Source: Burkholderiales bacterium (GTDB taxonomy: Bacteria > Pseudomonadota > Gammaproteobacteria > Burkholderiales > SG8-41). Taken from it: DNA of 36,690 nucleotides. The position numbers and the translations under genes are program-made. This document shows positions 15,202-20,417 of the stretch, piece by piece. The notes under the pieces are model-generated. The model had not been told where the DNA came from. It worked only from the letters and a program-made list of their open reading frames with translations, and made no database searches. The stretch lies in contig JAIENU010000066.1 of the NCBI GenBank assembly GCA_019751125.1, positions 1 to 36,690 on the forward strand, read 5' to 3'. Each line of letters opens with the position of its first letter. Within the stretch, counting starts at the first letter, position 1.

Positions 15202-17811
<2,610 letters not shown>

Positions 17812-17913
17812 AACGGCCGCGGCAAAGTGCTTTAACTCCGCACCCTAAGTTTTTGTTTTTTCGCGGCGTCATATTTCGTGCCAACGCCGTTGGGCGGTGA
17901 TTGAAAAAGAGTG

Positions 17914-17942
17914 TTGACTCGGGTTTTTGAGCGGCGTAAAAC
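17914..17942 (+). promoter_or_regulatory. Sigma-70-like promoter in the clpB-Bug receptor gap
   Basis: TTGACT (17914-17919), a 17-bp spacer and TAAAAC (17937-17942) make one of the better promoter matches in the window. No ordinary protein-coding gene begins nearby. It points into the hairpin array that ends at 18173. Confidence 0.5.
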
Positions 17943-17955
17943 AGGCATCAGGTTC

Positions 17956-18072
17956 ATGCAGCACTGTGCCGCCGGTACCCGCGGCACTGCGTGCGAGATT
18001 CCGGGCAACCGTCCGGGTATCGCCTGCCACGATTGCAGTGCGCACTGCGATTGCTTGAGTCCGGGGTGGTGA
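17956..18072 (+). CDS. Possible 38-residue cysteine-rich small ORF
   Basis: ATG 17956 to TGA 18070-18072 encodes 38 residues with six Cys, four of them clustered as ACHDCSAHCDCLSPGW. An in-frame GTG at 17911 would add 15 residues but lies on the proposed -35 box. No clear ribosome binding site is present, and GC-rich DNA yields Cys codons by chance. The same bases may instead serve RNA structure. Listed only because the Cx2C-x3-CxC cluster is striking. Confidence 0.15.
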   Translation: MQHCAAGTRGTACEIPGNRPGIACHDCSAHCDCLSPGW

Positions 18073-18143
18073 GATGCCATTCGTTAAAGGACGCCGCTCT
18101 GGCGGCGCCGCACCGCAAGGTGCCCGCACCTCAGGGTGCACCG

Positions 18144-18173
18144 CGCCCCGCTCAATGCGGGGCGTTTCATTTT
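18144..18173 (+). terminator. Intrinsic terminator-like hairpin
   Basis: CGCCCCGC (18144-18151), loop TCAAT and GCGGGGCG (18157-18164) form a perfect 8-bp GC stem, followed by TTTCATTTTC. It would end the candidate RNA that starts near 17949. Confidence 0.55.
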
Positions 18174-18206
18174 CTCAGCTCAATGCGGAGTGTTTCACTT
18201 TCTCTG
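18151..18206 (+). repeat. Imperfect 28-bp tandem repeat
   Basis: Two units, 18151-18178 and 18179-18206, match at 24 of 28 positions; both begin CTCAATGCGG and contain GTTTCA and TTTCTC. The first unit contains the right arm and tail of the terminator hairpin. The second keeps the tail but has no left arm of its own. Confidence 0.8.
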
Positions 18207-18331
18207 CCGTCGCGTTTTGTCTCTGCTTTGATCCCCATCCAGTTCATTCGACTACGGGCACGATTCTCGAAGAGGCAGTGGTATCATTGCGCGCGCGATT
18301 TTTAGCTGTTCTGAAATATGGAGAAAAAATA

Positions 18332-19312
18332 GTGAAATCAAAGACTTGCAAATACATGCTGACGGCGGCGATGACCCTGGCCGGCATCGTTTCCGCACCT
18401 CTGGCTGCACAATCCTTCCCGGCCAAGCCGGTGCGCCTGATCATCCCGTTCTCAGCCGGCGGAGCAGCCGACGTGCCGGGCCGCATCATCACCCAGCGCC
18501 TGGCCGACCAGTTCAAGCAGCAGGTGCTGGTCGACAACCGTCCGGGTGCGGGTTCGACCATTGGCGCCGATATCGCCGCCAAATCACCGCCTGACGGCTA
18601 CACGCTGTTCATGATCAGCAACACCCATTTCGTCAGTGCCGCGTTGTATAAAAAACTGCCCTACGATTCGCTGAACGATTTCACGCCGGTGACCCAGGTC
18701 ACCAGCGCGCCGAATGTGCTGGTGGTACATCCCTCGCTGCCGGCGAAATCGGTGAAGGAACTGATCGCGCTGGCCAAGGCACGGCCGGGCCAGATCGATT
18801 ACGCCTCTTCCGGCAACGGCAGCACCCAGCATTTGACCGGTGCGCTGTTCGCCAACATGGCGGGCATCAAGATCAACCACATCCCGTACCGCGGCAGCGG
18901 TCCGGTGACCACCGATCTGCTTGGCGGCCAGGTGATGGTGGCTTTCCCCGGCATCGCTGGCATGCTGCCGCACATCAAGACCGGCCGGCTGCGCGCACTG
19001 GGTGTGACCGGCGGCAAGCGTTCGCCGGAACTGCCCGAAGTGCCGACCGTGGCCGAAGCCGGAGTCAAGGGCTACGAGATGGTCGCCTGGTTTGGTGTTT
19101 CAGCGCCCAAAGGCCTGCCCCGTGACCTGCAGATGCGCCTGCATGGCGACCTGCTGCGTGTGCTCAAGTCGCCGGAGATGGCAAAAAGCCTGCAGGCCGT
19201 GGGCCAGGAGCCAGCCTGGCAGGATACGCCGGAGAAGTTTTTTGACTTCACCAAGGTTGAGGCTGACAAATGGGCCAAGGTGGTTCGTGCCAGCGGCGCC
19301 GAAATCAACTGA
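18332..19312 (+). CDS. TctC/Bug-family periplasmic substrate-binding protein (first)
   Basis: A secreted receptor of 326 residues. From GTG 18332 the protein starts with KSKTCKYMLTAAMTLAGIVS, a Sec signal peptide with probable cleavage after LAAQ, then the Bug fold: VRLIIPFSAGGAADVPGRI, VDNRPGAGSTIGADIAAKSPPDGYT, PLPAKSVKELIALA-like segment, YRGSGPVTTDLLGGQV and a C-terminal VEADKWAKVV. Bug proteins capture carboxylates and similar metabolites for tripartite tricarboxylate transporters; no tctA/tctB is nearby, so it is an orphan receptor with unknown ligand. GGAG (18320-18323) supports GTG 18332; longer in-frame starts back to 18074 would run through the hairpin array and destroy the signal peptide. 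A strong terminator follows. It is a clear paralogue of the next gene. Confidence 0.9.
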   Translation: MKSKTCKYMLTAAMTLAGIVSAPLAAQSFPAKPVRLIIPFSAGGAADVPGRIITQRLADQFKQQVLVDNRPGAGSTIGADIAAKSPPDGYTLFMISNTHFVSAALYKKLPYDSLNDFTPVTQVTSAPNVLVVHPSLPAKSVKELIALAKARPGQIDYASSGNGSTQHLTGALFANMAGIKINHIPYRGSGPVTTDLLGGQVMVAFPGIAGMLPHIKTGRLRALGVTGGKRSPELPEVPTVAEAGVKGYEMVAWFGVSAPKGLPRDLQMRLHGDLLRVLKSPEMAKSLQAVGQEPAWQDTPEKFFDFTKVEADKWAKVVRASGAEIN

Positions 19313-19451: not shown

Positions 19452-20417
19452 ATGATGAAACGCAGCTGTTTACCGGTGACATTGGCACTGATGATGGCGG
19501 CCGGCAGCGTGCTGGCGGCGCAGCCTTATCCGCAGCGCCCGGTGCGCATGATCATTCCCTTTGCCGCAGGCGGCGCCACCGACGTGCCGACCCGGCTGAC
19601 CTCGGCCAAGCTCGCCGAACGTCTCGGTCAGCAGTTCGTCATCGACAACCGGCCGGGGCAGGGCGGCGCGCTGGGCACCGCGGTGGCGGCCAAGGCCGAG
19701 CCCGACGGTTACACCATCCTGCAGGCCGCGACTCCATTCGTGGTGAGCCCGCATGTCTACGGCAAACTGTCCTATGACCCGCTGAAGGATTTTGTGCCGG
19801 TGACTCAGTTCGGCTCGGCGCCGAACGTGCTGATGGTGCATCCGACACTGCCTGCGAAATCGGTGAAGGAGCTGATCGCGCTGGCCAACAGCCAGCCCGG
19901 CAAGCTCGACTGGGCATCTTCCGGCACCGGCGGCGGCCAGCATCTGTTCGGCGAGCTGTTCATGTCCATGGCCAACATCAAGGTCACGCACGTCTCGTAC
20001 AAGGGCAGTGGCGCCGCGATTGCCGACATGCTGGGGGGGCAGGTCAGGATTGGGTTCCCGGGCATCGCGATTGCGCTGCAGCACCACCGCGCCGGACGCC
20101 TGCTGGCGCTGGCCGTGACCACTGCGCAGCGTTCGCAGCAGATGCCCGACGTGCCCAGCATCGCCGAGGCCGGCGTTCCCGGCTATGAGGCAACGTTCTG
20201 GATGGGCATGTCGGTGCCCAAGGGCACACCCAAAGCAATCATCGACCTGCTGCACCGTGAAACCACGGCCCTGCTGAAATCCCCGGATCTGGTCGAAGGT
20301 TTCCGCCGTGCCGGCACCGATGCGGCGCCGTCAACACCGGCGGAGTTCGGCCGTTTCATCCAGTCGGAATACGACAAATGGGGCAAGGTGATCCGCGCCG
20401 TGGGCATCAAGGCCTGA
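19452..20417 (+). CDS. TctC/Bug-family periplasmic substrate-binding protein (second)
   Basis: The 321-residue protein has a signal peptide (MMKRSCLPVTLALMMAAG, probable cleavage after VLAA) and the Bug pattern VRMIIPFAAGGATDVPTRL, DNRPGQGGALGTAVAAKAEPDGYT, SAPNVLMVHPTLPAKSVKELIALA, YKGSGAAIADMLGGQV and EYDKWGKVIRAVGIKA. It shares long identical stretches with the preceding gene (for example PAKSVKELIALA), so the pair arose by duplication. The ligand-contacting loops differ, suggesting different substrates. AAGGAGG (19438-19444) sits 7 bp before the ATG, a strong ribosome binding site. A bidirectional terminator follows. No transporter membrane gene is present. Confidence 0.92.
   Translation: MMKRSCLPVTLALMMAAGSVLAAQPYPQRPVRMIIPFAAGGATDVPTRLTSAKLAERLGQQFVIDNRPGQGGALGTAVAAKAEPDGYTILQAATPFVVSPHVYGKLSYDPLKDFVPVTQFGSAPNVLMVHPTLPAKSVKELIALANSQPGKLDWASSGTGGGQHLFGELFMSMANIKVTHVSYKGSGAAIADMLGGQVRIGFPGIAIALQHHRAGRLLALAVTTAQRSQQMPDVPSIAEAGVPGYEATFWMGMSVPKGTPKAIIDLLHRETTALLKSPDLVEGFRRAGTDAAPSTPAEFGRFIQSEYDKWGKVIRAVGIKA

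Follow-up and report, generated by a model that had tools for sequence, protein, structure and literature searches.

A probable gene for a structured small RNA downstream of clpB in the Burkholderiales

Positions 17914-18173 of a 36,690-nt stretch of DNA from a Burkholderiales bacterium (the window, meaning the whole stretch that was analysed) most probably form a separate gene whose product would be a structured non-coding RNA about 225 nt long; we infer its transcription from sequence comparisons and put the probability of this reading at roughly 93%. A preliminary description, made from the window itself, had proposed a discrete structured small-RNA gene at this place. The sequence evidence upholds that proposal: the segment has its own promoter-like box and terminator, it lies after clpB and its stems covary. 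RNA polymerase would start about 6 nt past the TAAAAC box, near 17948, and would stop at the GC terminator, near 18171. The transcript would fold into a four-way junction (P1 to P4) followed by P5, P6 and P7. The features are listed below.

15202-17811, + strand: clpB, the conserved upstream neighbour (Pfam ClpB_D2-small, AAA_2, Clp_N)
17914-17919, + strand: -35 box TTGACT of the putative RNA promoter, read in the sequence
17937-17942, + strand: putative -10 box TAAAAC, inside the conserved GGCGTAAAA (alignments of genus gaps and other genera)
17947-18171, + strand: predicted RNA, about 225 nt, its ends placed from promoter and terminator
17951-17959, + strand: P1 5' strand, closing the four-way junction (consensus structure)
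17961-17992, + strand: P2 hairpin, with the self-complementary loop GGUACC at 17974-17979 (covariation, genus alignment)
17993-18023, + strand: P3 hairpin, the most conserved arm (covariation)
18031-18052, + strand: P4 hairpin, variable in sequence (consensus structure)
18053-18061, + strand: P1 3' strand (consensus structure)
18064-18082, + strand: P5 hairpin (consensus structure)
18089-18109, + strand: P6 hairpin, with a conserved CUCU at the loop (consensus structure, motif count)
18110-18123, + strand: P7 hairpin, variable, with a GCAA tetraloop (genus alignment)
18126-18139, + strand: extra hairpin GCACC-UCAG-GGUGC, present in just 2 of 14 rows, those of the window and of L082, its nearest relative
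18143-18173, + strand: predicted intrinsic terminator, a GC stem followed by an interrupted T tail (33 of 34 loci have an equivalent)

The source assembly comprises 3.46 Mb in 275 contigs, of which the window is C255, and the gap after clpB is single-copy within its own genome. Among the matches listed for the clpB of the window, betaproteobacterial sequences are the closest (best 85%, a Burkholderiales MAG; at least 80 relatives). As first described, the gap measures 520 bp; it is bounded by the clpB stop (17811) and by the GTG that starts a Bug/TctC gene (18332), and the RNA begins 135 nt past that stop. The Bug receptor gene had been called an orphan; it is actually the first of two tandem TctC/Bug-type receptor genes downstream of the RNA (18332-19312 and 19452-20417), which are 51.7% identical to each other. 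The TTGACT-N17-TAAAAC arrangement (17914-17919, a 17-nt spacer, 17937-17942), the string of hairpins past it and the GC hairpin at 18143-18173 with its T-rich tail are all present as originally noted. The GCAA tetraloop is there as well (18110-18123), but it is not fixed: it sits in the variable P7, whose loop follows the GNRA pattern in 14 of 14 genus rows (GUAA in 6, GCAA in 5, GAAA in 2 and GGAA in 1).

Taken in isolation, the promoter, terminator and fold signals are weak. A promoter consensus scan of 17400-18700 listed none, the two terminator-like sites found overlap and compare with 1.2 (sd 1.2) expected, and the fold of 17914-18173 has a z-score of -2.85, with 2 of 200 shuffles equally good. 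The locus stands above chance because of conservation, namely its BLAST matches, a covariation exceeding that of shuffled alignments and the recurrence of the promoter and terminator.

The preliminary description had made its case depend on conservation and covariation of the stems among relatives; both were checked, and both were found. The consensus fold was obtained with RNAalifold from 14 genus sequences aligned by MAFFT, an alignment not fitted to any model. It consists of a four-way junction, in which P1 closes P2, P3 and P4, and then P5, P6, P7 and the terminator. In this unfitted alignment, 17 of the 53 core pairs changed on both sides and 96.1% of the cells were paired, against 90.5% after shuffling; none of 500 shuffles reached the observed level. 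Four of five covariation measures were matched by 0 of 500 shuffles and the fifth (further pair types) by 3 of 500. The fitted alignment of 29 sequences has two-sided changes at 36 of 53 pairs, and 91.8% of its cells were paired versus 76.8% in shuffles; no shuffle out of 500 reached the observed value on any measure, and the values lay far above slid controls. Because alignments A6-A9 were fitted to the model, pair counts on them lean towards it, and the unfitted genus test is the cleaner of the two.

The A9/R3 set holds 29 of 34 matches. It leaves out L083, whose 5' half is unrelated, the divergent L119, L123 and L129, and L128, which we rejected as a genuine member (it looks spurious, and no terminator was seen); L132 and L133 are not part of this set. 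A tighter E-value (A6, A9) removed the false matches to the antisense strand, namely L091, L085 and one within L082. The excess of G-U cells over A-C cells (205 versus 31) fits the + strand, to which the alignment itself had been fitted. When folded singly, L122, L126 and L127 form the same four-way junction from different sequences. The window's own minimum-energy fold is without P1, and the full junction was not obtained in the single-sequence folds of L118, the L130 fragment, L119, L123, L129, L131 and L133. The covariation argues strongly for selection on the structure of an RNA.

All 9 pairs of the P2 main helix changed on both sides in at least one sequence of the 29-sequence alignment, and the P2 loop reads GGUACC in 14 of 14 genus rows and also in L112, L113, L114 and L117. 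It reads AGUACC in L115, and the loops of the g9 and second-family loci differ from GGUACC. The G-U pair adjoining the P3 loop is kept in all 29 sequences. A kissing interaction between P4 and P6 (AGGAG with CUCUU) was considered for the second family and dropped, as it is not seen in the genus.

The promoter, terminator and CUCU motif were counted over 34 loci, with L083 and L128 left out. A TTGAC box with a loosely defined -10 at 15-19 nt occurs in 22 loci, and in 33 the RNA is followed by a GC stem and a T-rich tail, both counts being made without a shuffle control; CUCU stands at the P6 loop in 30. The TTGAC box is absent as such from L086, L089, L091, L094 (TTTGC instead) and six g9 loci. 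L119, the one locus outside the terminator count, has a comparable stem whose loop is longer. Directly adjoining the terminator of the window there is a short duplication, in which the 28 nt at 18150-18177 (the terminator's 3' portion together with the tail) recur at 18178-18205 with 86% identity; L082 also has comparable repeated units past its terminator.

BLAST searches with the gap gave matches in 14 of the 20 other genomes of the genus; beyond the genus, one 32-nt terminator-like match appeared in one genome and none in the other 39. The covariance model R1, built from the genus alignment, matched 24 of 74 family genomes, 15 of which belong to the genus, and R3 matched 26 of the 74 (15 of 21 in the genus and 11 of 53 in the rest of the family). 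Across the order, the rebuilt model R2 had matches in 11 of 399 genomes, exposing a second family (8 of 41 genomes when R2 was run within it), and R3 again matched 11 of 399. A class-wide model search matched 1 of 274 genomes, namely the RNA's own. Because only 7-10 candidates were scored per genome in the order and class searches, absences at these levels are not proof.

Five of the six genus genomes without an RNA match also yielded no clpB C-terminus, and the sixth, G017, has clpB. As neither G017 nor 19 clpB loci from other family genera without matches yielded anything convincing, the RNA is patchy across genera. A search of 20 match-less clpB loci with filters off returned 15 matches up to E = 1, the best of which (19.1 bits, E 0.0041) lies on the clpB coding-sequence side. 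R1 and R2 gave only weak matches on 80 clpB loci (best 19.9 bits, in L078, upstream of clpB), and a motif scan of up to 1.5 kb past clpB in the same 80 loci found no full P6 match. P3-like strings with up to two mismatches, present in 11 of these 80 loci, were judged to be chance. Among the genus loci, L083 (G009:C63, about 220-440) aligns with the others only over the 3' half of the RNA; its 5' half is unrelated, and no clpB was found in its genome. It could be truncated, recombinant or an artefact of assembly.

The position after clpB is independent support for the RNA because the covariance model carries no clpB information. Upstream of the RNA and on the same strand, clpB is found at 13 of 14 other genus loci (the exception, L083, starts near a contig end), at 9 of 11 family loci outside the genus (both exceptions lie near contig starts) and at 6 of 10 second-family places. 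L123, L127 and L129 of the second family are RNA-like copies with terminators that lie away from clpB; the genome carrying L123 has another copy, which is linked to clpB. L128, rejected above, is a further second-family place. In L118 (about 800-1341), L120 (1886-2425, - strand), L132 and L133, clpB and the RNA are separated by a conserved ORF of roughly 180 aa, which in L117 (3-554) lies just upstream of the RNA. This ORF starts MNIHQIQM in some loci, and its copy in L120 had no Pfam match. Because an ORF can intervene and some members are elsewhere, the link between the RNA and clpB looks like an inherited neighbourhood.

These neighbours also bear on an alternative in which the segment would belong to the 3' end of clpB, as a 3' UTR element or a fragment processed from it, or would be a leader controlling the gene that follows. 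The RNA is 135 nt past the clpB stop, and a TctC/Bug-type gene follows it in the window, in L082 and in five g9 loci (L119, L120, L121, L132 and L133). Read-through from clpB is possible, since the hairpin and T tract that lie ahead of the RNA form no clear terminator in the window. However, the RNA has a promoter-like box before it and a terminator after it, the ORF intervenes after clpB in L118, L120, L132 and L133, and L123, L127 and L129 are not beside clpB at all. A leader function is further opposed by the neighbour check covering the genus loci, in which only 2 of 16 loci had TctC-type matches; this gene family is very common in such genomes. We therefore consider a 3' UTR element or leader improbable. 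The T tract in question, TGTTTT at 17849-17861, occurs in every one of the 14 genus loci with clpB. It is preceded by a hairpin in some of them (clear in L091, not in the window, L092 or L085), and perhaps it is the clpB terminator.

A protein-coding gene or short peptide is very improbable. The window has ORFs of 82-104 aa that overlap the region, and an ATG stands in the P5 loop across the genus, but indels of 1, 2 and 11 nt break every frame among the 14 close relatives, most rows have stops in most frames, and it is the base pairs that covary. The indels and scattered stops together exclude a shared reading frame; a peptide starting at the P5-loop ATG was rejected, its frames differing between relatives. 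Just as improbable are chance hairpins or a repeat or mobile element, which the GC-rich window and the weak single-sequence signals might suggest but which the single genomic copy, the conserved position and the covariation contradict; distant blastn against plasmid and phage collections gave no match to the gap.

We compared the RNA, read as an independent gene, with known families. At gathering scores, Rfam reported no family in the window or in the loci of 17 relatives. The RNA had been presented as new, which holds in that it has no match in Rfam 15; the published Burkholderiales-1 candidate RNA, tabulated without an Rfam number in Weinberg et al. 2010 (PMC2864571), stands outside this comparison. 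The literature, searched by title and the start of the abstract, gave no report of an RNA after clpB in betaproteobacteria. 6S RNA (RF00013) is likewise stand-alone, structured and of similar size, but the RNA described here is a four-way junction, and 6S was rejected, as the genome's only match to it lies elsewhere (G000:C71:2326-2507, 76.3 bits).

The best sub-threshold match was to anti-hemB (Burkholderia RNA 7, RF02837), with 30.4 bits in L122 and 26.6 bits in L126 against a gathering score of 49.5, while the window gave no reported match. Anti-hemB has a row of three hairpins that closes with a terminator, and in L122 and L126 these align with P6, P7 and the terminator. However, most of the pyrimidine-rich loop in its first hairpin (model consensus UUCUCCUCCCUGA) falls in a deletion of that alignment, and it has nothing equivalent to P1-P5. 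Anti-hemB was rejected on the score and the missing loop. sX13 of Xanthomonadaceae (RF02232) shares the string of hairpins and a similar GC terminator, and was rejected at 17.7 bits versus 50 required, with the match confined to 18090-18169. The CsrA-titrating RsmY and RsmX (RF00195, RF02144) gave weak sub-threshold matches in relatives, several of them within the terminator region only. RNAs of the RsmY/CsrB type carry several GGA loops. A single GGA occurs in 17947-18171, the scores reach at most 25.5 bits versus the 56-57 needed, and this assignment was rejected too. The resemblances to anti-hemB, sX13 and RsmY lie mainly over the 3' hairpins and the terminator.

A likeness of another kind, by analogy only, is to the ornate RNAs OLE, ROOL and GOLLD, which stand alone and whose shape is under selection. 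Some RNAs of this type form homo-oligomers (PMC12286853), and OLE is about 600 nt long (PMC9723947). The ornate RNAs measure several hundred nucleotides, whereas the RNA here has about 225 and shows no Rfam match to them.

As to how the RNA may act, we favour action through its folded shape, ranking it above antisense pairing and leaving the remainder to other modes; we hold it tentatively, at a little short of even odds. The RNA would be bound by protein through its fold and, in genera that keep GGUACC, the self-complementary P2 loops might join two RNAs into a dimer. We lean towards this mode because the shape is selected, because conserved unpaired positions are few and scattered (identity reaches 85% in only 15 of 53 well-filled unpaired columns), and because GGUACC is kept on a covarying stem. 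We also counted the interrupted T tail of the terminator towards it. Dimerisation cannot be general, since the P2 loop is not GGUACC in g9 or in the second family.

Alternatively, the RNA could be a trans-acting antisense sRNA, in which CUCU in P6 or another loop would pair with mRNAs, for instance at AG-rich ribosome-binding sites. The CUCU that 30 of 34 loci keep at the P6 loop is complementary to AGAG, and the size, own promoter and own terminator suit such RNAs. This mode appears rather doubtful, though, as conserved unpaired nucleotides come only a few to a run and selection acts mainly on structure. Hfq-dependent sRNAs have long U tails, unlike the interrupted terminator tail found here (TTTCATTTT).

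Protein binding through the fold also enters a broader and more speculative proposal, which we regard as unlikely as a whole. The RNA, with its four-way junction, would represent a new class that acts through its shape, is linked to clpB by descent, works as a ribonucleoprotein (RNP), forms a kissing homodimer through GGUACC in some genera, and has a function unlike those of the named bacterial RNAs.

In kind, the RNA would be a stand-alone structured small RNA. The RNA family that it forms has no Rfam match and would extend over two or more bacterial families of a single betaproteobacterial order. With the consensus fold and covariance model, its transcripts and partners can be tested for directly. 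Elsewhere, RNPs and other RNAs that do not act by antisense pairing have come to light from the same pattern, a stand-alone RNA that has no evident seed and whose shape is strongly selected. If the dimerisation proposed for the GGUACC-keeping genera is true, this RNA would join the few natural RNA homo-oligomers.
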